DNA of 64,000 bases from Spirochaetia bacterium (GTDB lineage: Bacteria; Spirochaetota; Spirochaetia; CADAEX01), in contig JAFSOR010000017.1 in assembly GCA_017446885.1 (NCBI GenBank), forward strand, positions 1 to 64,000. Reading direction: 5' to 3'. The notes below the pieces were generated by a model. The model did no database searches. It saw nothing but the letters and a program-made list of their open reading frames with translations, and had not been told where the DNA came from. The translations under genes were made by a program, and so were the position numbers. Positions within the stretch are counted from its first letter, which is position 1. Every line of letters begins with the position of its first letter. Shown one piece after another: positions 12,017-33,603 of the stretch.

Positions 12017-12733
12017 ATGAATAATGTATTAATCTTCGCAGGTGGCGCAGGCCGCCGGATGAACAGCAGGTCTAAACCAAAACAGTTTCTTAAGCTGTAT
12101 GGCAAGGAGATAATTATCCATACCTTGGAGAATTTCCAGAATCATCCGGAGGTGGACAATATAGTTGTTGTATGCATCAAGGGTTGGATTGGCTACCTTC
12201 AGAAACTTCTGGCACAGTACGGCATGGATAAGGTGCACCTTATTGTTGCCGGAGGTAAAACAGGACAGGAGTCAATCTATAATGGCCTCTGTGCACTTTC
12301 TGACTTTGCCCCGGAAGATTCTATTGTCTTGGTACATGATGGAGTACGTCCATTTGTTACAGATACTCTTATTTCTGATTGCATTAAATCTGTGAAGAAA
12401 AATGGTTCTGCTATTACAGTTACACCAGCAATTGAAACTATAGTAGAGCTGGATGGTAAAAAGATTTCAGCTATAACTGACAGAAGCAAGTGCTATCATG
12501 CCAAGGCACCTCAGTGTTTCTATCTTGGAGAATTACTTGCTGCTCATATGAAGGCTATAAAGGATGGCAATACCAATATGATAGACTCTGCCTCCTTGAT
12601 GAAACATTATGGTCATGATCTTTTTGTTGTACCAGGAACAACAGATAACATAAAAATTACTACTCCTGCAGACTTCTATGCTTTCCGTGCATTATATGAT
12701 GCCAGAGAAAATCAGCAGATTTTTGGACTATGA
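12017..12733 (+). CDS. IspD/TarI-family cytidylyltransferase
   Basis: A 238-residue nucleotidyltransferase. It has the FAGGAGRRM...SKPKQFLKLYGKEI opening and the VHDGVRPFV and TPAIETIV segments of the IspD/TarI family. IspD makes CDP-methylerythritol for isoprenoids; TarI makes CDP-ribitol for teichoic acids. The context (an SDR overlapping by four bases, two TagF-like transferases and LicD) argues strongly for a CDP-polyol used in a surface polymer. The partner is an extended SDR rather than the usual TarJ, so the exact polyol is open. Composition returns to moderate GC here, ending the AT-rich segment. Confidence 0.85.
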   Translation: MNNVLIFAGGAGRRMNSRSKPKQFLKLYGKEIIIHTLENFQNHPEVDNIVVVCIKGWIGYLQKLLAQYGMDKVHLIVAGGKTGQESIYNGLCALSDFAPEDSIVLVHDGVRPFVTDTLISDCIKSVKKNGSAITVTPAIETIVELDGKKISAITDRSKCYHAKAPQCFYLGELLAAHMKAIKDGNTNMIDSASLMKHYGHDLFVVPGTTDNIKITTPADFYAFRALYDARENQQIFGL

Positions 12734-13776
12734 TAAACCCAATAGTTGAATCAGATATAAAAGAACTCATATTAAGAAAGAAATATTTTGAACCATTTAT
12801 CGGCTCTTCTGTGCTCATTACAGGAGCAACTGGCCTTCTTGGCTCTTTGATGGTAAAGTCGGTATCGCACTACGCTGGTACTGTCTATACATGCTGTAGA
12901 AGCAAGACAAAGTTTGAATCAGTTTTTGAGGGGTATAAAGCAGAAAATATATTTCCTATTTTTTCTGATATCACTGATTTGGATATATCCAAGCTGACAG
13001 TTGATTATATTATCCATGCGGCCAGCCCTACAGATTCCAAGTGTTTTGTCGAGAAGCCTGTGGATACTATCACTACAGCAGTAGAAGGAACCAATCATCT
13101 TCTTGCTCAGTGTATTGGAAAATCTCTTAAGGGCTTTATATATCTTAGTTCACTTGAGGTGTATGGTTTTTTTCCTGGTTGCACAGGAATTAAGAATGTG
13201 ACAGAGACAGATTATGGCTATCTTGAGCCAATGTCTATAAGATCCAGTTATTCTGAGAGCAAAAGGCTGGTAGAAACATTGAGTAAGGCATATCTGAGCC
13301 AATATGGTGTTCCTGTTAAGATTGCCAGGTTGTGCCAGACTTTCGGGGCGGGTGTCCGATATAATGACAATCGTGTTTTTGCTCAGTTTGCTCGGAGTGT
13401 CATAGAAGGAAAGGATATTGTTCTTAGAACAAAAGGAGAGACAGTCCGCAATTATTGTTATACAACCGATTCTATTGCAGGTATTCTGACTGTTTTGGCA
13501 TCTGGAACAGCAGGCGATGTCTACAATGTTGCAAACAAGGGCACAACAATTTCAATAGCAGATATGGCTGATCTCTTTTGTAAACTCTCTCCCGAAAACA
13601 GATCCAAGGTAATCTTTGACATAGCAGAAGATGCTGGAAAGCTTGGATATAACCCGACAGTTAAGTTGCAGCTTGATACCAGTAAACTTGAGAAACTGGG
13701 ATGGCGGCCAGAGATAGACCTTAATGATATGATTTGTCGTTTAGTTGAAGGTATGAAAAATGAGAAACTTGTTTGA
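12730..13776 (+). CDS. Extended SDR partner of the CDP-polyol cytidylyltransferase
   Basis: A 348-residue NAD(P)-dependent extended SDR. The VLITGATGLLGS Rossmann motif lies near residues 29-40, SSLEVYG gives the active-site serine region, and SYSESKRL holds the Tyr-xxx-Lys pair. Its ATG overlaps the cytidylyltransferase stop by four bases. It therefore probably acts on the same sugar or polyol, either making the polyol phosphate substrate or modifying the activated product. It is not the zinc alcohol dehydrogenase TarJ. Its end overlaps the first TagF-like gene by 17 bases. Confidence 0.85.
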   Translation: MINPIVESDIKELILRKKYFEPFIGSSVLITGATGLLGSLMVKSVSHYAGTVYTCCRSKTKFESVFEGYKAENIFPIFSDITDLDISKLTVDYIIHAASPTDSKCFVEKPVDTITTAVEGTNHLLAQCIGKSLKGFIYLSSLEVYGFFPGCTGIKNVTETDYGYLEPMSIRSSYSESKRLVETLSKAYLSQYGVPVKIARLCQTFGAGVRYNDNRVFAQFARSVIEGKDIVLRTKGETVRNYCYTTDSIAGILTVLASGTAGDVYNVANKGTTISIADMADLFCKLSPENRSKVIFDIAEDAGKLGYNPTVKLQLDTSKLEKLGWRPEIDLNDMICRLVEGMKNEKLV

Positions 13777-14938
13777 TGTTATAATTCGATATTATAGGTT
13801 TATTACTAAACGTATCATTCGTGTCCTTCTTCGTGTTTTCTATATTTTTCCTGTGGACGAGAAGAAAATAGTTTTCTCAACTTTTGGTGGCAAACGATAT
13901 TCCTGTAATCCTAAATATCTTTATTGTTACATCAAAGAGAAATTTGGCGATAAATATAAGTATATCTGGATTTTCCAAAATCCCAAGAAGCGGGAGCTGG
14001 TGCCGGGAGCTGTCTGTGCAATAAATAAACTGACAAAACTTTATGCCTTTCTTACCAGCAAATATATCATTTCCAACAATGATGTCTTCTGGTTCCTACC
14101 TTTACGAAAAAGCCAGATAGTGGTTCAGACTTGGCATGGAGGCGGAGCCTATAAGAAGGTTGGCTCTTTTGAGAACTGGAACAGAGTTTTCTTATATTGC
14201 CAGAAGAAGGTTGCAGAAGATATTTCTTACTACATTTCCTCAAGCCAGAAATTCACAGAAGTACAGTCCCCCTCCAAATTTGTTCCAAAAGAAAAATTCA
14301 TTAATACAGGAATGCCACGGAATGAGGTTTTCTTTTATCCTGACAGGATGACAGAATTTAAGAAGCGTGTAGTAGATTTTTATAATATTCCAACTGATAA
14401 GAAAATAGTGCTTTATGCGCCTACTTTCCGAGGAGAGCCAAGGGTTAAAGTGGTAAAGGAAAAATTGCAGTACGGATCCTTTAACTATAAGAAAACTATA
14501 GAGGATATAACGAAGCGATTTGGTGGGGAATGGGTTCTTCTTTATAGAGGGCACCATCTTGATTCTTCTGTCTCACGAGCTCTGCCAGATACAGTCATTA
14601 ATGCCTCAAAGTACGAGGATATGCAAGAATTGCTTTGTGCCTCTGATGTCCTTATAACCGATTTCTCTTCTACCATGTGGGATTTTGCCCTGACTAAAAG
14701 ACCATGTTTCCTGTATGCCCCAGACTTGCAGCAGTATATTGCAGACCGCGGTTTCTATACTGATCCATTCACCTGGCCGTTCCCTATGGCTCAGAGCGAT
14801 ATTGAACTTTCTGCCAACATCAAGGGCTTTGATCCGGCTGCTTACGAAAAAGCTGTTGAGAAGCATCTCTCTGACTTTGGATCTTATGAGAACAAGGATG
14901 CCTGTCAGAAAGTACTTGATGCTATTGGTATATGCTGA
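13760..14938 (+). CDS. CDP-glycerol/ribitol phosphotransferase-like protein (TagF family), first of tandem pair
   Basis: A 392-residue member of the TagB/TagF glycerophosphotransferase family. A hydrophobic N-terminal region (residues about 10-32) probably binds the membrane surface. The catalytic TWHGGGAYK contains His126, and DVLITDFSSTMWDFAL in the C-terminal half is the CDP-binding acidic/serine motif. Such enzymes polymerise glycerol- or ribitol-phosphate from CDP-polyols onto lipid-linked acceptors in the cytoplasm. The next gene is a close paralogue. With the cytidylyltransferase and LicD it forms a teichoic-acid-like block, unusual in a diderm but known in some capsules. Confidence 0.88.
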   Translation: MRNLFDVIIRYYRFITKRIIRVLLRVFYIFPVDEKKIVFSTFGGKRYSCNPKYLYCYIKEKFGDKYKYIWIFQNPKKRELVPGAVCAINKLTKLYAFLTSKYIISNNDVFWFLPLRKSQIVVQTWHGGGAYKKVGSFENWNRVFLYCQKKVAEDISYYISSSQKFTEVQSPSKFVPKEKFINTGMPRNEVFFYPDRMTEFKKRVVDFYNIPTDKKIVLYAPTFRGEPRVKVVKEKLQYGSFNYKKTIEDITKRFGGEWVLLYRGHHLDSSVSRALPDTVINASKYEDMQELLCASDVLITDFSSTMWDFALTKRPCFLYAPDLQQYIADRGFYTDPFTWPFPMAQSDIELSANIKGFDPAAYEKAVEKHLSDFGSYENKDACQKVLDAIGIC

Positions 14939-16083
14939 AGTTTTTATTTAAAATTGCAACTTGGCTTGCATTACATATCTTTTATATTCTTCCAGTCAAG
15001 GAAAACCAGATATTTTTCCGAGCTTTTCATGGGAAAAAATATGATTGCAATCCCAAGTATCTTTTCCTCTATATGCTGAAAAAATATGGGGATTCATATA
15101 CATACATATGGGAACTTGGAGATGCTGGTCAGGTGATTAATGGAGCCAGCAGTGTGCGGCGGCTCTCTATTAAGTCTTTTATGGCTATGATGACCAGCAA
15201 GTACATTGTCACCAACAACGATTTCATGTGGTGGATTCCCTTGCGTAGAAGCCAGGTGATGCTTGAAACCTGGCATGGTGGCGGTGCATATAAGAGGGTG
15301 GGTTTATATGAAAAATGGAGCCGCCTAATGCTTCTGGATCAAAAATGGAACGCCAGGCAGGTAACCTACTATATTTCATCAAGCCGTAAGTTCACAGAGG
15401 TACAGGCCCCTTCTAAGTGGGTGCCGGAAGAAAAGTTCATAAATACAGGAATGCCACGAAACGAGGTGTTCTTTTATCCTGAAAAAGTTACACAACTTAG
15501 GGAAAAGGTGTTTGCACACTTTGGTCTTAGGGCAGATTCTGATATCAAAATTGTGCTCTATGCACCCACATATCGTGGACTTACTGGATATAAAGGTAGC
15601 GGGAAAGATATTAAGATTACCCCCGATTACAAAGCGTTGCTTGAAGCACTGGGGCAAAAGTATGGTGGTCGATGGGTGCTTTTCTTCCGCAGCCATTACT
15701 TTGATTCTAGCTTGACTGAACAGTTGCCTGATTCTGTGGTGGATGCCACCAAATACGAGGATATGCAGGAACTGCTCTGTGCCGCCGATGTTCTTGTAAC
15801 TGACTTCTCATCCTCAATATGGGACTTCGGTTTGACAAAGAAGCCTTGCTTCTTGTTTGCTTCTGATTTACAGCAGTATATCGCAGACCGCGGATTCTAT
15901 ACTGACCCGTTCACCTGGCCTTTCCCAATGGCTCAGAATGATGGTGAGCTGTCGAGAAATATTTTAAGTTTTGATGAAACAACATATAAGAAGGCCGTAC
16001 AAAAACATCTTACAGATTTTGGCTCCTATGAGAACAAGGATGCCTGTGCTAAGGTGTGTCAGGCTATAGGAATAACCGGATAA
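14932..16083 (+). CDS. CDP-glycerol/ribitol phosphotransferase-like protein (TagF family), second of tandem pair
   Basis: A 383-residue paralogue of the preceding protein. The two share long near-identical stretches such as TEVQxPSKxVPxEKFINTG and a nearly identical C-terminal region with QQYIADRGFYTDPFTWPFPM. The catalytic histidine is His115 in TWHGGGAYK. The ATG overlaps the stop of the first copy (ATGCTGA). A tandem pair may divide priming and polymerising, as TagB and TagF do, or transfer two different polyols. The stop overlaps the start of the LicD gene (TAATG). Confidence 0.88.
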   Translation: MLKFLFKIATWLALHIFYILPVKENQIFFRAFHGKKYDCNPKYLFLYMLKKYGDSYTYIWELGDAGQVINGASSVRRLSIKSFMAMMTSKYIVTNNDFMWWIPLRRSQVMLETWHGGGAYKRVGLYEKWSRLMLLDQKWNARQVTYYISSSRKFTEVQAPSKWVPEEKFINTGMPRNEVFFYPEKVTQLREKVFAHFGLRADSDIKIVLYAPTYRGLTGYKGSGKDIKITPDYKALLEALGQKYGGRWVLFFRSHYFDSSLTEQLPDSVVDATKYEDMQELLCAADVLVTDFSSSIWDFGLTKKPCFLFASDLQQYIADRGFYTDPFTWPFPMAQNDGELSRNILSFDETTYKKAVQKHLTDFGSYENKDACAKVCQAIGITG

Positions 16084-16910
16084 TGTCTAAGACCCTTACT
16101 CCGAAAGAACTCCGCAAGGTACAACTCCTTGAACTCAAAGTGCTCAAGGAAATAAAGCGTATCTGCACAAAGCACGATATAAAGTACTTCCTTACCGGTG
16201 GTACTCTGATAGGGGCGGTGCGGCACAAGGGCTTTATCCCCTGGGATGATGATATCGATATTGCCATGATGCGGCCCGATTACGACCGTTTTCTGGAGAT
16301 TGCCCCCAAGGAGCTGGGATCTGAGTTTGAGCTTCTCTGTATTCAGCATGATCCTAAAATTGGTACTTTCTTCTCTAAAGTAGTACTTAACGGAACAACC
16401 TACCGGAACATCCAGCAGCCAGATAATGCAAAAAACTTCGGTTTTTTAGTGGACGTGCTGCCCTATGATACGATTTATGACAATAAACTTCTGGCAAAGC
16501 TTTACTTCTGCTGGCTGAACTTCTGTGTGGTGCTCTATTCCATGAAGAATGGGTATCATAACGGTACAACTAAGTTTAAGCGGTTTGTAGCAAAGGCTAT
16601 GAAGATCTGCTTCTTCTGGGTGCCCAAGGAATGGCTCCGGAAGACTATAATCAACTATCCATATCGGCTGAATAAAAAGAAAACCAATACAAAAGCCTAT
16701 CTTTCCGGACGTTATGGAATCCCCAGGGAGATGCGGAGTACCTATCTTTTCGGCGAGTATACAGAGCTGCCTTTTGAGGATGACACCTTCATGGTTCTGA
16801 AGGAATATCATGCTTTTTTAACCGAGCTTTTCGGCGATTATATGAAGCTGCCTCCTGTGGAGCAGCGGGTCACCCATCAGGTGGCCGAACTCGATTTTGG
16901 GAAATATTAA
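16083..16910 (+). CDS. LicD-family phosphotransferase
   Basis: A 275-residue LicD protein. LTGGTLIGAVRHKGFIPWDD (ending at residue 56) and the acidic cluster Asp55-Asp56-Asp57 and Asp59 are the signature of this nucleotidyltransferase-like fold. LicD proteins move phosphocholine, or in related systems other phospho-groups, from CDP donors onto surface sugars. No choline uptake or kinase gene is nearby, so the group transferred is unknown. The ATG at 16083 sits in a TAATG junction with the preceding gene and is preferred to an in-frame GTG at 16056. It ends one base into the following radical SAM gene. Confidence 0.9.
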   Translation: MSKTLTPKELRKVQLLELKVLKEIKRICTKHDIKYFLTGGTLIGAVRHKGFIPWDDDIDIAMMRPDYDRFLEIAPKELGSEFELLCIQHDPKIGTFFSKVVLNGTTYRNIQQPDNAKNFGFLVDVLPYDTIYDNKLLAKLYFCWLNFCVVLYSMKNGYHNGTTKFKRFVAKAMKICFFWVPKEWLRKTIINYPYRLNKKKTNTKAYLSGRYGIPREMRSTYLFGEYTELPFEDDTFMVLKEYHAFLTELFGDYMKLPPVEQRVTHQVAELDFGKY

Positions 16911-19721: not shown

Positions 19722-22304
19722 GTGAACCCATTATATTTAATTTTCATATATCCAATAGAACTCCTCATTGAGCTGGTGTTCCAGCTTTCCTACGAGTTGT
19801 GGGACAGCCCTGGCATATCGCTTGCAGCGGTGAGCCTTGCGGTCAGCTTCCTCTCCCTGCCTCTGTACATAATTGCAGAGCGGTGGCAGCAGAAGGAGCG
19901 GGATATCCAGAAGGCATTCAAGCCTGAGATTGACGAGATAAAGGCTGTGTTCAAGGGGGATGAGCGGTATATGATCCTCTCCACCTTCTATCGGCAGAAC
20001 CATTACCATCCGGTGATGGCACTCCGCAGCTCCATAAGCCTGATGATTCAGGTGCCGTTCTTTATCGCCGCCTATGTGTTCCTGTCAAATCTGGAGCTTC
20101 TGCGTGGTCAGAGCCTGTGGTTCATTAAAGACCTGGGTGCACCCGACCAGCTGTTCAGCATCGGCGGCTTTCCTGTAAACATCCTCCCTATAGCCATGAC
20201 TGTGATTAACATCATAGCCAGTGCTGTATACGTAAAGGGTTTTGCTTTCAAGGAGAAGCTCCAGCTCTACGGTATGGCGGCCCTGTTCCTGGTGTTGCTC
20301 TACAATTCTCCGGCAGGGCTTGTCTTCTACTGGACGCTGAACAACGTTTTCTCTCTGTGCAAGAATATATGTTATAAGGTCAAATTTAAAAGGTCAGTGA
20401 CCTTAAAAAATGACCTTTTAAAAGTATACAACTTCTGTAAGCATCCTCTGGTGCCGCTTTATAGGCAGGACAGGCTGCGGTTTGGAATCTTTTTCTTGTG
20501 CTGCGCTGCCTTTCTCCTGCTGGTAGGGGCTGTTATTCCATCGTCCCTCATCTGCTCATCGGTGCAGGAGTTCTCTTATATAGAGCCTTTCAAGAGTCCT
20601 CTTGGCATACTCAAGTTCCCGTTCCTTCAGACTATGGGAATTGCAGTATGGATGGTGGCACTCTACTTCCTTTTCTCCAAAAAGACGCAGACTGTGTTCA
20701 CATTCCTCCTTTTGGCTGGAATTGCTGGCGGCCTTGTAAACACCTATGTTTTTGCAGGTGGATATGGTACGGTGCTGGCTCAGAACGGCCTTATCTTCGA
20801 GAACGGTCTTAAGATAAAGAACGAGCTGGCCAAGTTCCCCATCGATATTGCCACCGCTTTTGTAGTGATAAGTCTGGTTCTCTTTATCCTGGGCAAGGGC
20901 TGGCTTAAGGCGGTAAAGAATGTATGCGCTATCCTGGTGCTGGCTCTGCTTGCATTCTCGGTCTTCAATGTAGCAAAGATAAATAGCGAGTTCCACAGGC
21001 TTGAAACAATTGTGGCATCGAGTTCCAACCGGGGAAGCGATGAGACTGTAAAGCCTGTGTATCACTTCTCCCGGACAGGGAAGAATGTGGTTGTTATCAT
21101 GCTGGACCGGGGCATAAGCTCTTTTGTACCTTACATAATGAAAGAGCTGCCTTCAGTCAAGGAGAACTTCCGGGGTTTTGTCTGGTATCCAAATACGCTG
21201 GCTCCAGGGGATCACACTATCTTCTCTGCTCCAGCCATCTTCGGCGGGTATGACTATCTGCCCCAGGTCATGAATGGAAGGCGTGATCAGCTGCTTATAG
21301 ATAAGCACAACGAATCCCTGAAGGTGCTGCCTGCATATTTCCTGAACCAAGGTTATCAGGTTTCTGTCACCGACCCACCTATGGCCAACTACAGCTGGAC
21401 TCCCGATAACTCTATATTTCCCAAGGAGATTCATGCAGTTAATATAGGCGGCCGATACGACAAGCTGTGGCGTAAGGAGCATGGAATGGAGCTTTCGGGC
21501 TTTATTCTGTCAGACTTCATGAAGCGGGATTTCCTTTTCTTCGATTTCTTCCGTGTCTGCCCTGTGTCGCTTCGTGGAATCCTCTACGACCACGGTGGAT
21601 GGTGGAATTCTAATAAGGATAAAGCCAAGGATGAGAATTCCCTGGCTATAAAGTACTATTCGGCTCTAGACTACTTGTCTGGGCTCTCTGATGTAGTGGA
21701 GGGAGCTGGTTCCTACATGGCGCTGGACAATGACCTGCCCCACGAGCCTGCTTGGATGCAGTATCCCGATTACAAACTGCAGGCCAAGATTACAGACAGG
21801 GGCAAAAACCGCTTTGGAGCCGAGACTGTTTTTATTCACTACCACGCTAATGCCGCCACATTGCGGCTGCTGGGTCAGTGGTTTGCTTGGATGAGAGAAA
21901 ATGATGTCTACGACAACACCCGGATAGTTATAGCTTCTGACCACGGCCGGCATTTTAAGGGGGAGAATAAGACCCTGGAGACCGACTTTGACAAGAGCGA
22001 CCTGGCTGCTTGGAACGCTCTTCTGCTGTACAAGGACTTTGGAGCTGATGGCGAGATTGTCACCGATACTACCTTTATGACAGTTGCCGATGTCCCATAC
22101 CTGGCCACCCATGGAATTTCCGATAAACCTGTAAATCCTTTTACAGGGAATGCATTTGACATGGCCGGGAAAAAGGATGGTGTCACTGTGGTGACAGGTC
22201 TGGGCGAGGCCAGCGACCATGGCAAATACACTTTCAACTATACCGAGAAATATCGGGTAAAAGATAATATTTTCAAGGCTGCCAACTGGGAGAAGCTTAA
22301 ATGA
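19722..22304 (+). CDS. YidC-like membrane domain fused to a sulfatase/phosphoglycerol-transferase-type domain, copy 1
   Basis: An 860-residue fusion. Residues 1 to about 215 match YidC/Oxa1: a first helix with SFLSLPLY, a charged hairpin, LMIQVPFFIAAYVFLS, and the hallmark SPAGLVFYWTLNNVFSL. The groove arginine of YidC insertases is replaced by Ser42. Five or more hydrophobic segments follow (about 250-430). Residues about 450-860 form an alkaline-phosphatase-superfamily domain: VVVIMLDRG (Asp462), a GDHTIFSAPAIF segment with a candidate threonine nucleophile, and SDHGRHF (Asp740, His741) as metal ligands. LtaS and OpgB, which transfer phosphoglycerol, belong to this superfamily. The GTG start aligns with the start of copy 2 at 34051. 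It overlaps the next gene by four bases. Confidence 0.85.
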   Translation: MNPLYLIFIYPIELLIELVFQLSYELWDSPGISLAAVSLAVSFLSLPLYIIAERWQQKERDIQKAFKPEIDEIKAVFKGDERYMILSTFYRQNHYHPVMALRSSISLMIQVPFFIAAYVFLSNLELLRGQSLWFIKDLGAPDQLFSIGGFPVNILPIAMTVINIIASAVYVKGFAFKEKLQLYGMAALFLVLLYNSPAGLVFYWTLNNVFSLCKNICYKVKFKRSVTLKNDLLKVYNFCKHPLVPLYRQDRLRFGIFFLCCAAFLLLVGAVIPSSLICSSVQEFSYIEPFKSPLGILKFPFLQTMGIAVWMVALYFLFSKKTQTVFTFLLLAGIAGGLVNTYVFAGGYGTVLAQNGLIFENGLKIKNELAKFPIDIATAFVVISLVLFILGKGWLKAVKNVCAILVLALLAFSVFNVAKINSEFHRLETIVASSSNRGSDETVKPVYHFSRTGKNVVVIMLDRGISSFVPYIMKELPSVKENFRGFVWYPNTLAPGDHTIFSAPAIFGGYDYLPQVMNGRRDQLLIDKHNESLKVLPAYFLNQGYQVSVTDPPMANYSWTPDNSIFPKEIHAVNIGGRYDKLWRKEHGMELSGFILSDFMKRDFLFFDFFRVCPVSLRGILYDHGGWWNSNKDKAKDENSLAIKYYSALDYLSGLSDVVEGAGSYMALDNDLPHEPAWMQYPDYKLQAKITDRGKNRFGAETVFIHYHANAATLRLLGQWFAWMRENDVYDNTRIVIASDHGRHFKGENKTLETDFDKSDLAAWNALLLYKDFGADGEIVTDTTFMTVADVPYLATHGISDKPVNPFTGNAFDMAGKKDGVTVVTGLGEASDHGKYTFNYTEKYRVKDNIFKAANWEKLK
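20378..20424 (+). repeat. Intragenic palindromic repeat, GGTCA/TGACC type
   Basis: TTTAAAAGGTCA at 20385-20396 and its exact complement TGACCTTTTAAA at 20411-20422 flank a 14-base loop that holds a smaller AAGGTCA-type copy. The same 12-base arms occur at 49153-49206. The element is read in frame and falls in the linker just after the last YidC-type helix. Confidence 0.7.
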
Positions 22305-23527
22305 TGCTCTACATAGACCCAGGCACAGGCAGCATGCTCTTCTCTGTACTGATAAGCCTATTTGCCCTGGGTTATTTTGCGTTCCGTGGGGTTCTGATAA
22401 AGCTTCGGCTCCTCTTTGCCGGCAAAAAGGGTGCATCCAAGGGGAATCGGATTCCCTATGTAATCTACAACGAGGGCAGGCAGTACTGGACCACCTTCAA
22501 GCCGGTGGTGGAGGAGTTTGAGAAACGAGCCATTCCCTTGGTCTACTACACTTCTGCCCATGACGACCCGGTGTTTGACACAAAATGGCAGTTTGTAAAG
22601 CCTGAATTTATAGGCGAAGGCAACAAAGCCTATGCCCGCCTGAACCTGATGGAAGCAGATGTGTGCCTTATGACCACCCCGGGGCTTGATGTATTCCAGC
22701 TTAAGCGGTCAAAAGGGGTAAAGCACTACTGCCATGTGGTCCATATGATAAACGACGCCACCACCTACAAGCGGTATGGCCTTGACTATTTTGACTCTGT
22801 GCTCCTGGCCGGCGAATGGCAGGGGGATGATATACGGTACCTGGAGAAGCTCCGGGGACTGCCACCTAAGCGTCTGGTGACTGTGGGCTGCCCCTATCTG
22901 GATGTGCAGCAGGCACGCCTTGATGATGCCCTGAAACAAGTTCAGGGTGACAATTATACCGTGCTGGTCTCTCCATCATGGGGAGCAAGCGGCCTTTTAA
23001 GCCTGTACGGAGAAAAGTTGTTGGATCCTCTGGCGGCAACTTGCTGGAACATCATAGTGCGGCCGCATCCACAGTCCAAGGTTGTAGAGAAGGAGCTTAT
23101 TACCCGCCTGCAGGCTAAATATAATAAAAATAAAAATATAATATGGGATTTTGACCCTGATAATATTGTATCTATTTCAAAAGCTGATATAATGATTTCT
23201 GATTTTTCCAGCATCACACTGGACTTTGCATTCCTGCGTAACAAGCCTTTCCTGGCTGCTGTGGGCGATTTTGATGCAAGACCCTACGATGCCGAAAAAG
23301 TGCCTCATCCGCTGTGGCAGTTCCAAGTTCTTCCTAAGATAGGCAGGGAGCTTAAGGAATCAGACTTCAAGCAGATAGGGGAGATTATAAAAAATATTGC
23401 AGACGACCCTGCAGCATCCGAAAACCGGGCGTTGGCAAAGGCTAAGGCATGGCAGTATCAAGGCCAGGCTGGGGCTCGTATAGCCGACTATATGGTCAAG
23501 GTACAGCAGGAGGTCGCAGAAGGATAG
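22301..23527 (+). CDS. TagF-like protein with DPGTGS-type hydrophobic N-terminus, copy 1
   Basis: A 408-residue protein. The N-terminus (LYIDPGTGSMLFSVLISLFA) is a membrane helix preceded by a DPGTGS motif, and the rest is a CDP-glycerol-phosphotransferase-like GT-B fold with IIVRPHP and DIMISDFSSITLDFAF. It lacks a clear TWHG motif like that of the 13.8-16.0 kb pair, although WHxG-type residues may be replaced by the CHVVHMIND region. The ATG overlaps the stop of the YidC-sulfatase gene by four bases, and the same pairing recurs at 36987. The two proteins therefore very likely act together at the inner membrane. A CCCTGAA palindrome lies within it at 22929. Confidence 0.82.
   Translation: MMLYIDPGTGSMLFSVLISLFALGYFAFRGVLIKLRLLFAGKKGASKGNRIPYVIYNEGRQYWTTFKPVVEEFEKRAIPLVYYTSAHDDPVFDTKWQFVKPEFIGEGNKAYARLNLMEADVCLMTTPGLDVFQLKRSKGVKHYCHVVHMINDATTYKRYGLDYFDSVLLAGEWQGDDIRYLEKLRGLPPKRLVTVGCPYLDVQQARLDDALKQVQGDNYTVLVSPSWGASGLLSLYGEKLLDPLAATCWNIIVRPHPQSKVVEKELITRLQAKYNKNKNIIWDFDPDNIVSISKADIMISDFSSITLDFAFLRNKPFLAAVGDFDARPYDAEKVPHPLWQFQVLPKIGRELKESDFKQIGEIIKNIADDPAASENRALAKAKAWQYQGQAGARIADYMVKVQQEVAEG
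22929..22947 (+). repeat. CCCTGAA/TTCAGGG palindrome inside a coding sequence
   Basis: CCCTGAA and TTCAGGG flank ACAAG. It is read as part of ALKQVQGD. A closely similar palindrome lies at 61262-61282, read as ILKQVQDD in an unrelated gene. Repeats of this CCTGAAACAAGTTCAGG form are known dispersed REP-like sequences in several bacteria. Confidence 0.7.
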
Positions 23528-23533
23528 AATCTT

Positions 23534-24406
23534 ATGTTTGGACCCAACACCAATTTTGAAGACACCGTAAGTATCAATTGTTCACACCGGGATCAGAGCT
23601 TTTTCAAGCTTTTTGACCAAGTGAGGGAGCTTTTTGCCACCAAGTTCGGCCTTGAGGATTACGATATCCTCTTTATCCCAGGCAGCGCCACTGTAGGTGT
23701 GGAGGCCACCATGTTCTCCATGAAGTACCGCATAAAGATGGCTGGCTACGAGGGGGAGTTCAAGGAAAGGTGGAACCAGATGCTTCAGAATTATCCCAAA
23801 AAAGAAACCTATCCCGAGACAGAGATGTTCTGCCGCCTTGAGACCAGCATCTCTGCCCCTTTCGCCAAGGAAAACTGCATTGTTGACGCTGTAAGCGCAT
23901 TCCCATACTACGATGTGCCCAAAGGTACCAAGGTGCTATGCACCTGCCTTAACAAGCAGCTTGCCTCCTATGTAGGGCTTGCAGTTGTCTGTGTAAAAAA
24001 AGACCAGTGGGAGTACTGCGTGGACAGCGATGTCTACTCCTACCTTAACCTGCGGCGCTATAAGGATTATGCAGAGCATCATCAGACTCCTAACACATCG
24101 CCCACTTTCATCTACGAGCATTTCTGCCGGGTTCTTAAGAGCTTTGACCTAGAAGAGTTCCGCAGCCGGATAAACAAGGTGTCTGACCTTATATGCAGCG
24201 CAATTCCAGAGGAATACATTGTAGGCGAGAAACAGTGCCCGGTCATCACCATAAAGAAAGAGGCCTTTGCAAAAGACACAAGCATTGCCCGGAAGTTCGA
24301 CCTTTACGGCTATTGGACAGGAAAGCCTGACTACCAGATTTTCACATACACCTCTCCTGTGGAAGATTACGAGGAATTTGTAAGACAGTACCGCAGTTCA
24401 TGTTGA
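23534..24406 (+). CDS. Short fold-type I PLP-enzyme-like protein
   Basis: A 290-residue protein that resembles class V aminotransferases, perhaps the 2-aminoethylphosphonate transaminase branch. ILFIPGSATVGVEATMFS (about residues 45-62) matches the glycine-rich phosphate-binding turn, and CLNKQLASYVGLAVVCV places a candidate PLP lysine at Lys141. It is much shorter than the usual 360-400 residues: parts of the large domain and the N-terminus are reduced. It may make an amino-bearing group for the surface polymer or may have lost catalysis. It starts six bases after the TagF-like gene and overlaps the following permease gene by seven bases. Confidence 0.6.
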   Translation: MFGPNTNFEDTVSINCSHRDQSFFKLFDQVRELFATKFGLEDYDILFIPGSATVGVEATMFSMKYRIKMAGYEGEFKERWNQMLQNYPKKETYPETEMFCRLETSISAPFAKENCIVDAVSAFPYYDVPKGTKVLCTCLNKQLASYVGLAVVCVKKDQWEYCVDSDVYSYLNLRRYKDYAEHHQTPNTSPTFIYEHFCRVLKSFDLEEFRSRINKVSDLICSAIPEEYIVGEKQCPVITIKKEAFAKDTSIARKFDLYGYWTGKPDYQIFTYTSPVEDYEEFVRQYRSSC

Positions 24407-25857
24407 TTTTAAAGATTGCGTTCAGAAATATTTGCCGCAACACCCGAAAGACCATACTTTTAGGCACCTTGATAGCTCTGGGTATGGCTTTCCTGTTTTT
24501 TGCCAACGCTGTGTTCGAGAGTGCAGACCAGGGTGTGCGTACCTCATTTGTGGGCAGCCTTACCGGCGATGTAGTCATGGCATCGGAGTCCGAGACGCCG
24601 TTCAGCCTTTTTGGCAACGAGATTCCTGTTATAGACGACTATGAGGTTATCCCATCAATCCCGGGCTATGCCGATATATCTGAATCCCTTGATTCCCTTT
24701 CCTATACCCAGGCCTATACCCCTGTGGTTTCTGGGGCGGCCGGTGTCGAGATAGGGGACTACCGGGGCACATCGGCAGTGTTCGGCATAGTGCCAGAAAG
24801 CTACTTTGATGTATGCGGCGATATAGAGATTGTCTCCGGTAATCCTGCCGACATAGCAGATGGAGGTATATTCCTGTGCCAGATGGTAAAGGATGATGCC
24901 GAGAAAAAGCTGGGCCGGCCTCTCGAAGTTGGGGATGAGATAAAACTTAGCCTCTACTCGGACGGCAGCTTTAAAATCCGCAAAGGAAAGTATGCCGGCT
25001 GCCACAGCTACATAAACCAGACACCACCTTTTGATGCCATAATTCTGGCCGACCCGACTATAGTTCGTGGTCTTATAGATTATACTGCCGGCAACTTGGT
25101 TGCTTCTGATAAAAATAACTCAGAAGAGCCCACCGCTATCGATGATTTTGACTTTGACACCCTTTTCTCCGAGGCCGAGGATTCAGAGAAATCGGCTGAA
25201 GAAGAGTTCTCGCTGGACAAGCTAGAGTCGATTCTGGCCGACACCACCGAGCGCGATGCCCTGGCTCAGGTCTCATCATCGGCCTGGAGCTTTGTCCTTT
25301 TTAAAGCCACAGAAGGGGATGAGAATGCTCTTAAGAAGGAGCTTTCTGCCCTTTCAAAGGAAAACCATTGGAATGTGGAGATAAAAAGCTGGCGCAAGGG
25401 GGCTGGCTTAAACGCCCAGATGGTTTTTGCACTCAAGGCTGCCTTTGATGTTGGTATACTTTTTATAATCATAGGGGCAGTGCTTGTTATAGTGAATGCA
25501 TTGGTAATATCTGTCCTTGAGCGCAGCTACGAGATAGGCACCATGCGGGGCATAGGGGCAGGAAAGCCTTTTATAAGCGCCCTTTTTATAGCCGAATCCA
25601 TGATGCTTACCCTTACCGCCGCCACTGTTGGAATAATAATAGGAATCATAGCCTCTGCAATTTTTGCAGGCGGCATACCGCTCCATAACAATCTGCTTAT
25701 AACTATGTTCGGCGGCGATGTGCTCCGTCCTGTGGTCACATTCAAGAATATTGCGCTCCATTTTGCAGGGGCTGCCCTGGTGGGTGCCCTGTCGTGGATT
25801 TACCCTGTATCGCTGGCTGTAAAGATTCAGCCTGTCATGATAATGGGGAGGGGTTAG
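24400..25857 (+). CDS. FtsX-family ABC permease (LolC/E or MacB-like), first subunit
   Basis: A 485-residue permease. One N-terminal helix (residues about 15-37), a large periplasmic domain and three C-terminal helices with an ERSYEIGTMRGIGAG segment form the LolCE/MacB topology. Such permeases use ATP to push envelope substrates, often lipoproteins, out of the inner membrane. The periplasmic domain carries an unusual acidic insertion around residues 240-285, with DDFDFDTLF at 248-256, similar to one in the barrel protein at 27921. The gene starts the operon of permeases, LolA-like protein and barrel; the ATPase is convergent at 29155. Confidence 0.88.
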   Translation: MLILKIAFRNICRNTRKTILLGTLIALGMAFLFFANAVFESADQGVRTSFVGSLTGDVVMASESETPFSLFGNEIPVIDDYEVIPSIPGYADISESLDSLSYTQAYTPVVSGAAGVEIGDYRGTSAVFGIVPESYFDVCGDIEIVSGNPADIADGGIFLCQMVKDDAEKKLGRPLEVGDEIKLSLYSDGSFKIRKGKYAGCHSYINQTPPFDAIILADPTIVRGLIDYTAGNLVASDKNNSEEPTAIDDFDFDTLFSEAEDSEKSAEEEFSLDKLESILADTTERDALAQVSSSAWSFVLFKATEGDENALKKELSALSKENHWNVEIKSWRKGAGLNAQMVFALKAAFDVGILFIIIGAVLVIVNALVISVLERSYEIGTMRGIGAGKPFISALFIAESMMLTLTAATVGIIIGIIASAIFAGGIPLHNNLLITMFGGDVLRPVVTFKNIALHFAGAALVGALSWIYPVSLAVKIQPVMIMGRG

Positions 25858-25859
25858 CC

Positions 25860-27149
25860 ATGTTCCTGTTTGCTGTCCGTAACCTTTTCCTTCAGCGGAA
25901 ACGCTATGCCCTTATGGCACTGGCTGTGGCTGTGGGCTTTATGCTTATTACAGTGCTCACAGGCCTTTCTTACGGTGCCCTTGAGACTATAAAGACCAAG
26001 GCTGCCCGTTATTTCTCGGGTCATATCATAGTTTACGGCTTTGAGAACACCGGTATGTCCATACCCGACTCCAAAAGCTATGTGAATATCATAAACCGTT
26101 CAAAGCTTCCGCTGCGTACTGTATCTCCGCGGTCGGTCTATTACGGCAAAGAGGTGCGGCTTTTCTTCGGTGGCAACTATATAAGGCTGCTCCGGGTTAT
26201 AGGGGCCGACTTTGAGACCGAGGGAAAGGAGCTTTCAAAGCTTCCGTTTATAGAAGGGGGCATAGAAGGGCTTTCTGGGCCCGACGGCAAGAATGGCATA
26301 ATAATAAGCACCGAGGCTTCGCGCCTTTTGGGTGCCCGCCTTGGCGATGATGTCATTATCTATGTTAAGACCATAGAAGGGCAGTACAACACCGAGAATA
26401 TGATAGTCAAGGGCATCTTCGACGAGACCAATATATTCGGCTATGCCGCCTATATGAACAGGGAAGAGCTTAACATTATCATGGACCAACCCCAGGACTG
26501 GGCAACCGAGATTGCAGTATATGCAAAGGAAGGGAGCAATATCCCCCTTATAACCGAGCGTCTTAGGCTTGAGTTTGCCAAGACCAAGGATGTTTTCCCC
26601 ACTATCAATACCCGTCACGATTTCAGCGAATACCGCTCTGGCAACAGGGGCAATGACAAGGAAGTGGTTGCCGTAATGTCTGTGAATGCCCAGCTTGAGC
26701 AGCTTAAAAGCCTTCTGGATGCCTTCCTGCTGTGCACCTACTTTGTCCTTTTTATATTCCTTGTCATTGTCATGATAGGAATTTTGAACACCTACCGTGT
26801 CATTGTCTACGAGCGTACCCGGGAGATAGGCACTATGCGGGCTATCGGCATGCAGGCATCCGATGTCAAGCTGATATTCCTTTACGAGGCGGCGGCTCTG
26901 GCGGTGATAGCTTCTGCCATCGGTTTTGGCCTGGGGCTTGTAACCTTCCATTTCGTTGGACTGTTTAATTTAAGTAAGGTTACTGCGGCTGGAATGTTTA
27001 CCGAGAACGGCAGGCTGCAGTACTTTATCGGGTTCCGTTCTGTGGCTTTGAACCTGTTTTTTATGATGGTGGCAGTTATAGCTGCTGCCTACAGACCGGC
27101 AAAGAAAGCATCTTTGATGCCGCCGGCCGATGCCCTTAGAAAGGATTGA
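25860..27149 (+). CDS. FtsX-family ABC permease (LolC/E or MacB-like), second subunit
   Basis: A 429-residue permease with the same layout as the previous one: an N-terminal helix (residues about 16-38), a periplasmic MacB-type domain and three C-terminal helices. YERTREIGTMRAIGMQ is the coupling motif facing the ATPase. The ATG at 25860 is two bases after the previous stop and is preferred to upstream starts inside the preceding gene. Two non-identical FtsX subunits with a separate ATPase match the LolCDE plan rather than the single-chain MacB plan. It ends three bases before the LolA-like gene. Confidence 0.9.
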   Translation: MFLFAVRNLFLQRKRYALMALAVAVGFMLITVLTGLSYGALETIKTKAARYFSGHIIVYGFENTGMSIPDSKSYVNIINRSKLPLRTVSPRSVYYGKEVRLFFGGNYIRLLRVIGADFETEGKELSKLPFIEGGIEGLSGPDGKNGIIISTEASRLLGARLGDDVIIYVKTIEGQYNTENMIVKGIFDETNIFGYAAYMNREELNIIMDQPQDWATEIAVYAKEGSNIPLITERLRLEFAKTKDVFPTINTRHDFSEYRSGNRGNDKEVVAVMSVNAQLEQLKSLLDAFLLCTYFVLFIFLVIVMIGILNTYRVIVYERTREIGTMRAIGMQASDVKLIFLYEAAALAVIASAIGFGLGLVTFHFVGLFNLSKVTAAGMFTENGRLQYFIGFRSVALNLFFMMVAVIAAAYRPAKKASLMPPADALRKD

Positions 27150-27152
27150 TGT

Positions 27153-27920
27153 ATGAAAAAAATAATTGCTTTCTTGCTTTTTGTATGTGTGATCTGTTCT
27201 GCTTTTGCAGATCCTGACTATGTAAAGATGCTCAAAGAGGTTGATGACCTTGTCACCTTCAAGGGGACAGACCTTTCTGCAGAATACACTATTGTAAAGC
27301 GGGATCCGGACGGCTCTTCCTCCACCACTGTGGCAGCCATGTTCCGCCGTGACAGCGAGGACAAGTTTGTAGTTCTGGTCCTTCAGCCTGTATCTGACAA
27401 AGGAAAGGGCTATCTTAAGCAGGGTAACAACCTGTGGCTCTACGACCCGATAGGCAAAGGCTTTACATTCACCAGCGCCAAGGAGCGGTTCCAGAACTCA
27501 AGCTTCCGAGTGTCGGATTTCACCGGCTCAAACTATGCCGGAAACTATAAGATCAAATCTGTAAAGCAGGAGAAGCTGGGCAAGTTCAACTGCACAGTCT
27601 TTGACCTTGAGGCAACTACCAAAAGTGTCTCCTTCCCAAAGGTCAAGATCTGGGTGTCCGAGGACAACCTGGTGCGCAAGCTCGAGGACTACAGCCTGTC
27701 GGGGCAGCTTATGCGTACATCGGCCTTCCCAAGCTACCAGAAGGTGGCAACCCGCTGGGTTCCTGCAAAAATCATAATCCAGGATCATCTGGTGTTCCGC
27801 AAGGTGGGCGACAAGGTTGAATACGAGCGGACCACTGTTGATATAAAAAATCCATCCCTTAACAAACAGCCCGATTCCCTGTATACTAAGGAATATCTTG
27901 AAAGGGTGAACACTAAATAA
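27153..27920 (+). CDS. LolA-like outer-membrane lipoprotein-sorting protein
   Basis: A 255-residue exported protein. A signal peptide (KKIIAFLLFVCVICSAFA, cleavage near residue 19) leads into a LolA/LolB-type half-barrel. It carries MFRRDSEDKFVVLVLQPVSDKGKGYL and NNLWLYDPIGKGFTFTSA, both characteristic of the outer membrane lipoprotein-sorting protein family found beside FtsX permeases. It lacks a lipobox cysteine, so it is probably soluble in the periplasm. It should carry a lipid or lipoprotein from the permeases to the barrel encoded next. Confidence 0.88.
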   Translation: MKKIIAFLLFVCVICSAFADPDYVKMLKEVDDLVTFKGTDLSAEYTIVKRDPDGSSSTTVAAMFRRDSEDKFVVLVLQPVSDKGKGYLKQGNNLWLYDPIGKGFTFTSAKERFQNSSFRVSDFTGSNYAGNYKIKSVKQEKLGKFNCTVFDLEATTKSVSFPKVKIWVSEDNLVRKLEDYSLSGQLMRTSAFPSYQKVATRWVPAKIIIQDHLVFRKVGDKVEYERTTVDIKNPSLNKQPDSLYTKEYLERVNTK

Positions 27921-29153
27921 GTGCAATTTGAGAAAAAGCGTCTGACATTTTTCGTTTTTCTGTCTCTGATTCTGTTTTGCCAGCTGATTTGTCTGCCCGA
28001 GGCAGTTCTGGCCGCCGAGTTTGAAATTTCCAGGGACAACGAGGATCTGGAGGCAGAGGATACCCCCTACGAAGATGACTTTGACTCTATATTTGATGAC
28101 CCTGCCGAAGATATTGTGGTTGAGCAGCCGGCAGATATAGACTACAGGAATCAGTTTGAGGAAAGCAAGAAGATAGTTGTAAGCGGCGACTTTGTAATCC
28201 GTGCCGGCGGTGGTTTCGGCTGGACCGATGAGCCTTTTGACGGATATCCTGAGAAAGTAGCAGGTGCCTATTCCAAGGCTACAATCTCCTTTGATGCCCG
28301 GCCTGACCCCACTATACGTATTTTTGGAAAGCTTAAGACCGAGATGGATTCCGACAACGGCAGTGATGTATGGTCCCGCTTGGATTTTGACGAGCTTTAC
28401 TGCGATTACAACTGGCTTGACAAATCTTTTTTCCGCCTGGGTAAATTCTATATGACCTGGGGACAGGGAAGGCTTTTCCGCCCTGCAAACTTTATGGAAG
28501 ACTGCGAAGATGGCACATCGTTCCGCATGACTATGCCCAATGTCCTTGATGGAGTAACGCTTGTCTCGCTTTATAAAAGGTATCCTGGAAGCCCCAACGA
28601 CGGAAAGCTTCATAAAGGCGATGTCTCGCTTGCAGGCCATGCAGACAAGACTCTGGGACCTATAAATTTCTCTGCCGCCATGCTCTATAACCAGATGGAC
28701 GGCCAGCGTTATTCCGGTTCTGTAAAGACTGTCATCCTGGGTACCGACCTGTTTGCCGACTATGTCCTTAACCGCTCTGACGAAGGCGATATAACACACG
28801 AGGCCTTGGCCGGCTTCTACCATGAGTGGGAGAATATTAAATTCTACGGTGAATACTACTACGACGGCCGTATCGAGGACGATGTTGACCACTGCGTAGG
28901 TCTTGCCACCGATTTTGACAACCTGTTCGGTTCCCCTGTGGGCATGGGTTTCAAGTGGCTCCATTCTGTTACCGACAATGCCGGCCAGTTTATAGGCGGC
29001 TTTTCTATATCGCCATGGAAACATGTCAAGATACGCATGGCAATTCCTTGGCAGTATGGCGACAAAGAGCTGGACAAGGACTTCTACGAGGAATTCCCTA
29101 TCAACAGCAAGCTTGCCTTTACCCTGTTTGTTGAGCTTTCTGCCGGATTCTGA
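27921..29153 (+). CDS. Outer-membrane beta-barrel protein of the Lol-like operon
   Basis: A 410-residue exported protein. A signal peptide (about residues 8-32, ending VLAA) precedes an acidic linker with EDDFDSIF at 51-58, then repeated amphipathic strands ending in aromatic residues and a final LAFTLFVELSAGF typical of a barrel C-terminus. The protein resembles the DUF1302-type or porin-like barrels found with FtsX/LolA operons. The GTG at 27921 directly follows the TAA of the LolA-like gene. It ends one base before the convergent ATPase gene stop. It could be the outer-membrane receptor or exit of this transport system. Confidence 0.8.
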   Translation: MQFEKKRLTFFVFLSLILFCQLICLPEAVLAAEFEISRDNEDLEAEDTPYEDDFDSIFDDPAEDIVVEQPADIDYRNQFEESKKIVVSGDFVIRAGGGFGWTDEPFDGYPEKVAGAYSKATISFDARPDPTIRIFGKLKTEMDSDNGSDVWSRLDFDELYCDYNWLDKSFFRLGKFYMTWGQGRLFRPANFMEDCEDGTSFRMTMPNVLDGVTLVSLYKRYPGSPNDGKLHKGDVSLAGHADKTLGPINFSAAMLYNQMDGQRYSGSVKTVILGTDLFADYVLNRSDEGDITHEALAGFYHEWENIKFYGEYYYDGRIEDDVDHCVGLATDFDNLFGSPVGMGFKWLHSVTDNAGQFIGGFSISPWKHVKIRMAIPWQYGDKELDKDFYEEFPINSKLAFTLFVELSAGF

Positions 29154-29154
29154 T

Positions 29155-29865
29155 TTATTGGTTGGCGTGCTGCCTGAAGTCTTCTGCCACAAGGCCATCC
29201 TTTAACCGAATCACATGGTCTGCAATAGAGAAGATGTTGTGGTCGTGGGTGGAGAAGATGAATGTAGTTTTAAGCTCTTTGTTAATCTTCTTCATAAGAG
29301 CTATGATATCTTCGCCTGTCTTTGAGTCTAAGTTTGCAGTAGGCTCGTCTGCCAGCACCACCTTGGGCTTGGTTGCCAGGGCCCGTGCTATAGCTACCCG
29401 CTGCCGCTGACCGCCCGAAAGCTCAGCTGGCTTGTGGGTTTTCCAGCGTGCTAAGCCCACAGCTTCAATCAGCGAATCAATGTATTCCTTGTGCTCCTGC
29501 TTTTCTTGGGCTGTGAACTTGTTTTTTCCTATAAGGAAAGGGAACTCGATGTTCTCGTACACATTGAGCACCGGCAGCAGGTTGAATGACTGGAATATAA
29601 AGCCTATGACATCGTGGCGCAGGTTAGTGATCTCCCTGTCCGAAAGACCCGATGTCTCCTGTCCGTTTATTATAACCTTGCCCTGGGTGGGGACATCGAT
29701 GCAGCCTATCATGTTGAGTATGGTGGATTTGCCGCTGCCGGAGGGACCTATTATGGAGACAAAGTCTCCTTCGTCAATGCTGAACGAAACCCCTTTTATG
29801 GCTGGCACCAGGGTCTTTCCAAGGTGATACGACTTTCTTACATTCTCCAGTTGTATAATTGGCAT
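29155..29865 (-). CDS. LolD/MacB-type ABC transporter ATPase
   Basis: A 236-residue ATPase. Walker A is GPSGSGKST (Lys46), the signature is LSGGQRQRVAIARAL, and Walker B is VVLADEPTANLD followed by the D-loop and a switch histidine in FIFSTHDHNIF. The size and motifs match LolD, the partner of FtsX permeases. It is encoded on the opposite strand, meeting the barrel gene tail to tail with one base between the stops. The ATG at 29865 is chosen because MPIIQLENVRKSY is the usual LolD start; a consensus promoter lies just upstream. Confidence 0.93.
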   Translation of the reverse strand: MPIIQLENVRKSYHLGKTLVPAIKGVSFSIDEGDFVSIIGPSGSGKSTILNMIGCIDVPTQGKVIINGQETSGLSDREITNLRHDVIGFIFQSFNLLPVLNVYENIEFPFLIGKNKFTAQEKQEHKEYIDSLIEAVGLARWKTHKPAELSGGQRQRVAIARALATKPKVVLADEPTANLDSKTGEDIIALMKKINKELKTTFIFSTHDHNIFSIADHVIRLKDGLVAEDFRQHANQ

Positions 29866-29886
29866 AAAAACCTGCTTTACTTGTTT

Positions 29887-29916
29887 ATTATAGCAGGATT
29901 TATTATATTTTAGCAA
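29887..29916 (-). promoter_or_regulatory. Putative promoter of the ATPase gene
   Basis: On the minus strand TTGCTA (29916-29911) and a perfect TATAAT (29892-29887) are separated by 18 bases, placing a start of transcription about 15 bases before the ATG at 29865. An inverted repeat, CCTGCT at 29871-29876 and AGCAGG at 29892-29897, overlaps the -10 element and could be an operator. No equally good promoter is seen for the divergent gene at 29926. Confidence 0.55.
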
Positions 29917-33588: not shown

Positions 33589-33603
33589 GTGGAGGAAAGC
33601 AGA

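Follow-up and report, generated by a model that had tools for sequence, protein, structure and literature searches.

Positions 1 to 64,000 of contig JAFSOR010000017.1 (GenBank assembly GCA_017446885.1, a Spirochaetia bacterium), here called the window, lie within a large surface-glycan island, whose genes include LicD, IspD/TarI-like, two full-length TagF-like, flippase, glycosyltransferase and UDP-glucose-dehydrogenase-like ones. The window carries two gene pairs (copy 1 and copy 2). Each pair encodes a fusion of a YidC/Oxa1-like domain to an alkaline-phosphatase-superfamily (AP) domain and a TagF-like partner with an N-terminal DPGTGS membrane helix (DPG below). An earlier note, made from the sequence alone, had proposed that the copy 1 pair may be a diderm surface-polymer or glycan phosphoglycerol transferase in which a retired insertase fold serves as membrane anchor or lipid entry. 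Our own reading, which we hold tentatively, is of a transmembrane headgroup-transfer machine.

Two gene pairs and their predicted structures

The copy 1 open reading frames (ORFs) share four bases (ATGA), and the second encodes a TagF-like protein with a DPGTGS N-terminus, just as the earlier note had described. Copy 2 repeats the arrangement, including the four-base overlap, and is conserved in congeners. Its fusion shows 43% and 24% identity to that of copy 1 in the two halves, and the partners are 31% identical. A gene for a YfhO-type membrane protein overlaps the downstream end of the copy 2 pair.

Table 1. Coordinates of the two gene pairs and of neighbouring features in the window (TM, transmembrane; AF2, AlphaFold 2)
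Feature	Position	Strand	Evidence or remark
Copy 1 fusion ORF, 860 aa, GTG start	19722-22304	+	ORF check
Copy 1 YidC/Oxa1-like 5-TM core with cytoplasmic C1 hairpin, residues 1-219	19722-20378	+	Pfam, AF2, Foldseek
Copy 1 second 5-TM bundle, LtaS/EptA-type, residues 250-434	20469-21023	+	AF2 helices
Copy 1 AP domain, residues 447-860	21060-22304	+	Foldseek, invariant residues
Copy 1 AP catalytic codon D462	21105-21107	+	
Copy 1 AP catalytic codon T499	21216-21218	+	
Copy 1 AP catalytic codon H674	21741-21743	+	
Copy 1 AP catalytic codons D740-H741	21939-21944	+	
Copy 1 partner (DPG), DPGTGS helix and GT-B TagF-like glycerophosphotransferase, 408 aa	22301-23527	+	Glyphos_transf 31.3 bits
Copy 2 fusion, YidC-like, TM and AP, 980 aa	34048-36990	+	60KD_IMP 78.4 bits, Sulfatase 36.5 bits
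Copy 2 partner, DPGTGS TagF-like	36987-38210	+	Glyphos_transf 41.5 bits
TagD-like gene (glycerol-3-phosphate cytidylyltransferase-like), directly before copy 2	33589-34047	+	CTP_transf_like 82.9 bits
Lol-like ABC exporter, two FtsX-type permease genes located after copy 1	24400-27149	+	FtsX 57.7 bits (first)
LolA-like periplasmic carrier	27153-27920	+	PF17131 125.5 bits
Whole exporter run	24400-29916		
Aminotransferase-like gene, 290 aa	23534-24406		
Tandem full-length TagF-like genes	13760-16083		
IspD/TarI-like gene	12017-12733		
LicD gene	16056-16910		
Flippase-glycosyltransferase chain, 752 aa	40813-43071		Polysacc_synt_3

The AF2 model of the copy 1 fusion (78 homologues used) has a mean pLDDT of 92.1 and a pTM of 0.87. 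Helices at residues 2-219 form a YidC core; a short linker follows, then five TM helices (250-279, 294-317, 320-342, 371-391 and 395-434) and the AP domain. Foldseek aligns the N-terminus with Bacillus halodurans YidC (3wo6/3wo7) over 219 columns (rmsd 3.3, TMt 0.68-0.71), and Pfam 60KD_IMP matches residues 33-217 at 75.8 bits (cut-off 35). The YidC/Oxa1 core named in the earlier note is thus present in both sequence and predicted full-chain structure. Since the C-terminal end of this core is cytoplasmic and five more helices follow it, the AP domain is predicted to be extracytoplasmic, and the modelled topology, which places it outside, is self-consistent.

The AP half gives Foldseek matches to PbgA/YejM, MCR-1 and LtaS. 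The Pfam Sulfatase profile scores under its cut-off of 25 bits in copy 1 (19.6 bits, residues 715-751) and above it in copy 2; neither fusion matches an NCBIfam AP family. In an alignment of 78 fusions D462, T499, H674, D740, H741, K771 and D790 are invariant. AP proteins encoded by separate genes (n = 14) keep D/E462, T499, H674, D740 and H741. The earlier note had correctly named D462, D740 and H741 as metal ligands but had overlooked the nucleophile T499 and H674. The T499 motif aligns with that of Escherichia coli EptA, SCGTATAVSVPCMF. Judged by these residues, the AP half is an intact LtaS/EptA-type enzyme that depends on Thr, and no sulfatase.

The sequence profile also matches sulfatases and phosphonate monoester hydrolases, which would suit a hydrolase (phosphodiesterase or sulfatase-like) that trims surface glycans. 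We give this little credence: position 499 is Thr, not the Cys or Ser precursor of formylglycine, in all 78 fusions and all 14 separate AP proteins, by which a true type I sulfatase was rejected. The alignment with a transferase motif, the tethering by five TM helices and the donor-synthesis neighbours described below also speak against hydrolysis.

The copy 1 DPG model (pLDDT 91.3) has a single N-terminal helix (residues 7-41), starting at the DPGTGS motif, and then a GT-B fold. Its best fold match is TagF with CDP-glycerol (3l7k), and the family was also matched to Cps3D and TarL. Both window partners exceed the Glyphos_transf cut-off (22.1 bits). Across 50 DPG sequences the DPG-GS motif, H148, RPHPQ (254-258), D301 and S303 are invariant. 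Neither window DPG protein has an NCBIfam match in the TarB/TarF/TarL equivalog test; the window's TagF-like gene at 13760-14938 matches the TarF model at 1.8e-47, under that model's cut-off. In 11 DPG proteins a signal-like hydrophobic stretch precedes the motif, which would place it outside.

Pairing, gene arrangements and origin of the YidC module

A scan of the whole collection returned more than 580 matching loci, of which 77 were kept; individual loci are cited by L number. Among the kept loci, fusions occur in Treponema (T. bryantii, T. brennaborense and the complete genome of T. putidum), Sphaerochaetaceae and other Spirochaetales, and also in Butyrivibrio, other Lachnospiraceae, Oscillospiraceae and other Clostridia. 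One spirochaete group (L152, L153) is probably Brachyspira. The earlier note's restriction to diderms is contradicted by the clostridial loci. It had also reasoned that homologues encoded by separate genes would mark the fusion as an assembly artefact. Such homologues exist, as described below, but an artefact was rejected: full-length fusions occur in many independent assemblies, including closed and isolate genomes (T. putidum NZ_CP009228, T. bryantii, Butyrivibrio).

Fusion and DPG occur together almost without exception. Of 296 Spirochaetota genomes, the fusion or a YidC-like part is present in 68 and DPG in 66; 65 have both, 3 the fusion only, 1 DPG only and 227 neither. The genomes with only one of the two are fragmented or incomplete assemblies. 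The pattern recurs in a second phylum: among 250 genomes of Lachnospiraceae, to which the Butyrivibrio locus belongs, the fusion is present in 13, of which 12 also have DPG, and no genome has a DPGTGS protein without a fusion. Where flanks were sufficient, DPG lies within 5 kb of the fusion in 32 of 39 cases, always on the same strand, and less than 100 bp away in 24.

The modules come in three arrangements. The window type (A) joins YidC to AP and has DPG beside it. In arrangement B the YidC-like, DPG and TM-AP proteins are encoded by separate neighbouring genes (L145, L146, L040/L041 and a second set at the T. putidum locus L124). L145 and L146 belong to other spirochaete families, and their separate modules adjoin genes for phosphoenolpyruvate (PEP) mutase (Ppm), phosphonopyruvate decarboxylase (Ppd) and a PntC-like protein. 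Arrangement C fuses YidC to the GT-B domain and leaves the TM-AP gene apart; it was found in eight Lachnospiraceae genomes, with proteins of 633-681 aa. Both YidC and GT-B profiles match all eight proteins; the two tested carry 60KD_IMP and Glyphos_transf above cut-off, and TM-AP is nearby in 5 of the 8 genomes. The YidC-GT-B loci (L167, L168, L185-L191, L193, L200-L206) often lie beside TM-AP genes and phosphonate or other cytidylyltransferase genes.

The five-helix bundle with its AP domain also exists without a YidC part (L040, L124, L167, L202-L205). Since the AP half carries this bundle of its own and also occurs so as a separate protein, the YidC part is dispensable as an anchor. Of the two roles offered by the earlier note, anchoring therefore fits poorly, and lipid entry is consistent with the arrangements found.

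In the tree, spirochaete-type YidC domains, fused and separate, form a clade split from spirochaete housekeeping YidC (support 100/100). A single origin of all system-linked YidC folds was rejected: holding the YidC-GT-B and YidC-AP clades together gives p-AU 0.02, with long branches as a caveat. On this evidence the YidC module was apparently recruited twice, and the two fusions differ in the partner enzyme: the outer one in the first case, the inner one in the second. Two recruitments into one pathway suggest that the fold has a function of its own.

The DPGTGS module can likewise be a separate gene, since a 93-aa YIDPATTS protein stands alone between the AP and YidC-GT-B genes at L204. Small DPGTGS proteins also adjoin other TM-AP genes in unrelated spirochaetes, and the helix seems to accompany membrane AP enzymes generally. 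As a separate observation, L156-L162 encode small DPGTGS/DPGSGS membrane proteins (64-118 aa), then a protein of about 465 aa starting with an SFRDPxGF motif. The L157 version of the latter has a weak methyltransferase match, and at L157 and L158 a TM-AP gene comes after it.

Proposed headgroup transfer and its alternatives

Gene neighbours point to the donors. The TagD-like gene before copy 2, which adjoins the system also in congeners and at L040, is a likely source of CDP-glycerol from its sequence matches; it scores 75 bits with TIGR01518, under the cut-off of 165. Elsewhere the system adjoins donor genes for CMP-aminoethylphosphonate (CMP-AEP): PEP mutase, phosphonopyruvate decarboxylase and a nucleotidyltransferase-AEP aminotransferase, with the core enzymes above NCBIfam cut-offs. 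Other neighbours are a nucleotidyltransferase with a CobD-like PLP domain and, at the probable Brachyspira loci, a nucleotidyltransferase and a choline/ethanolamine kinase. PEP mutase is over-represented among spirochaetes that carry the system (24 of 36; Fisher p 2.7e-9, a value inflated by relatedness); in about a dozen of these genomes, the coordinates put it no more than 5 kb from DPG. These headgroups suit an AP enzyme of the LtaS/EptA class because they are phospholipid headgroups. The phosphoglycerol transferase of the earlier note survives as an LtaS/EptA-like enzyme tied to a TagF-like partner and most likely serving phosphoglycerol-type transfer at the surface, but its donor is probably not only phosphoglycerol.

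We favour, short of thinking it probable, a machine in which the GT-B domain loads a lipid that the YidC fold then scrambles and whose headgroup the AP domain passes on outside. Going by gene content, a cytidylyltransferase would activate a polar headgroup X with CTP; X would most likely be glycerol phosphate in the window and aminoethylphosphonate or choline/ethanolamine-type phosphates elsewhere. The GT-B domain of DPG, held at the inner face by the DPGTGS helix, would then move X-phosph(on)ate from CMP/CDP-X onto a membrane lipid; TagF homology supplies the chemistry, and we infer the lipid acceptor. The YidC-like domain would offer the loaded headgroup a hydrophilic groove through the bilayer. 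We propose this scramblase step because E. coli YidC and Oxa1 relatives scramble lipids in vitro via the insertion groove (PMC10491306) and the YidC module sits between the two enzymes. Outside, T499 of the AP domain would attack the headgroup and, through a covalent Thr intermediate, hand X-phosph(on)ate on to a glycan or glycolipid at the surface, as in LtaS and EptA. This last step is proposed because the AP active site is intact; the acceptor is presumed.

A simpler account makes the AP half an ordinary LtaS/OpgB/EptA-type transferase working on bulk phosphatidylglycerol (PG) or phosphatidylethanolamine (PE), with the YidC fold only an assembly or dimerisation scaffold and DPG acting on its own polymer. 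The AP fold and catalytic residues do resemble LtaS and MCR-1, the AP half has its own five-helix bundle, and LtaS and EptA need no partner. We consider it unlikely, as it leaves unexplained the near-obligate pairing with a DPGTGS GT-B protein, the second recruitment of YidC (onto GT-B) and the adjoining CMP-AEP and choline-kinase donor genes.

The fold of DPG, nearest to the polymerase TagF and matching Cps3D and TarL, raises another possibility: the GT-B domain could extend a lipid-linked primer inside the cell into a polymer derived from CDP-X, which YidC-AP would export or ligate when finished. The further full-length TagF-like and polysaccharide flippase genes of the window agree with this. 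It is nevertheless quite improbable in our view: a YidC groove is small for a polymer, the window has dedicated flippases, and monomer donors such as AEP and choline usually serve for decorations.

The YidC-like domain might also still be an insertase or chaperone, dedicated to the partner enzyme or to another envelope protein. It retains the YidC fold with its cytoplasmic C1 hairpin, and YidC-GT-B fusions keep a groove Lys. We rate this very unlikely: neither window fusion reaches the TIGR03592 cut-off (70.9 and 79.9 bits against 84.3), and a separate housekeeping YidC is kept by the Lachnospiraceae tested and by 6 of 6 congeners. The congeners also led us to reject the idea that the fusions replaced housekeeping YidC. 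A 60KD_IMP search found no housekeeping YidC in the window's own assembly (94% complete), which is probably an assembly gap. We know of no precedent in which an insertase for a single substrate is covalently fused to a lipid enzyme.

Against the headgroup-transfer machine itself stand several points, the first being the groove. A basic groove residue occurs in none of 83 spirochaete-type fusions and stand-alone relatives versus 30 of 30 spirochaete housekeeping YidC proteins. However, it is present in only 1 of 10 Lachnospiraceae housekeeping YidC proteins, yet as Lys in 8 of 8 YidC-GT-B fusions. Read from alignments, groove chemistry gives no simple answer, since one clade has lost the residue and the other retains it. 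The Lachnospiraceae control weakens the equation of Arg/Lys loss with a dead insertase, and we do not argue for a loss of insertase activity; the earlier note's 'retired insertase' is supported only in part, by the spirochaete-type proteins but not by the two lachnospiraceal sets. Second, PbgA/YejM, which to our knowledge is no enzyme, is the top fold match of the AP half by E-value. Third, the coupling is imperfect: 7 of 39 fusions have no nearby DPG, some have no adjoining donor gene, and in some genomes there are several fusions for each DPG. Because the genomes share ancestry and the loci lie in glycan islands, p-values overstate independence. Finally, TagF-family enzymes usually use glycan or teichoic acceptors, not simple lipids, and LtaS and EptA use bulk PG and PE without a dedicated scramblase.

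The headgroup-transfer reading has a wider form, in which the YidC/Oxa1 fold left protein insertion at least twice independently to become a dedicated lipid scramblase in envelope tailoring, with GT-B loading the lipid and AP spending its headgroup outside. We regard this as doubtful, though worth stating.

Downstream of copy 1 lies a Lol-like exporter (two FtsX permeases, an ABC ATPase and a LolA-like carrier), along with a protein of about 410 aa without a Pfam match that looks like an outer-membrane protein. The exporter set adjoins fusions also at L039, L100 and L119, with LolA_like at L100 and L119. Because an exporter with a LolA-like carrier shares the gene run, the product in the window genus and at these three loci may be a glycan with a lipid anchor that is destined for the outer membrane. 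An aminotransferase-like gene lies between the copy 1 partner and the exporter; its best NCBIfam match, AEP aminotransferase, is far under cut-off, and it is conserved in congeners, which have no PEP mutase match. Elsewhere in the window, the tandem TagF-like, IspD/TarI-like and LicD genes form a separate teichoic-acid-like module in a diderm, and one chain combines a polysaccharide flippase with a C-terminal glycosyltransferase-2-like domain.

Comparison with known systems

A full-text search of the open-access literature found no published YidC-sulfatase or YidC-glycerophosphotransferase protein. The families of the parts are known; what is, as far as we can tell, undescribed is that they are covalently combined, that the three modules form a near-obligate set and that a YidC fold is used in it. 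Like LtaS, EptA/MCR and OpgB, the fusion has a five-helix bundle followed by an extracytoplasmic AP domain with the D/E-T-D-H set. It differs from them in its N-terminal YidC fold, its near-obligate DPGTGS TagF-like partner and the 12-14% identity in fold matches. With YidC/Oxa1 it shares the 5-TM core, the C1 hairpin, a 60KD_IMP score above cut-off and the conserved YW..N motif region. Unlike these, the fusion YidC is a separate clade (100/100) covalently joined to a lipid/glycan enzyme, and the spirochaete type is without the basic groove residue. DPG resembles TagF, TarL and Cps3D in its GT-B fold, conserved His and ISDFSS-type motif, but is shorter, has the DPGTGS membrane helix and an AP-enzyme partner, and is only weakly similar in sequence.

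For insertase scrambling, physiological relevance could not, according to the authors, be demonstrated, insertion being essential and scramblases redundant (PMC10491306). Here the YidC fold is in a non-housekeeping gene and fused to lipid/glycan enzymes, which makes physiological scrambling testable by deletion. If the reading is right, the system would be a natural case with insertase-fold scrambling as physiological function, and a new job for the YidC fold.

The Ppm-Ppd-PntC donor genes of the Pnt pathway (PMC6697681) stand directly beside the system at L145, L146, L203 and others, and T. denticola Tde1415 has the same nucleotidyltransferase and AEP-aminotransferase architecture as the system's neighbours (PMC6697681). 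LicD-like phosphotransferases and glycosyltransferases are named in Pnt neighbourhoods, with the later steps called 'enigmatic'; a sulfatase or YidC protein is unmentioned in that paper's text (PMC6697681). The system is a candidate for the steps after CMP-AEP in surface phosphonate tailoring. In the wider form of our reading it would supply the late part that is missing where bacteria tailor their surface with phosphonyl, choline or glycerol-phosphate groups. Teichoic-acid-like surface glycolipids have been reported in treponemes, and the system is a candidate there too, as a lead for which we found no open-access structural paper.

In the three-component tailoring systems Gtr and Arn, a lipid is loaded inside, flipped, and its headgroup transferred outside. 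Our system likewise appears to combine an inner loading enzyme, a middle membrane module and an outer transferase. Unlike in Gtr and Arn, all three parts come from unrelated families, and the middle one has a YidC fold in place of a GtrA/EmrE-type flippase.

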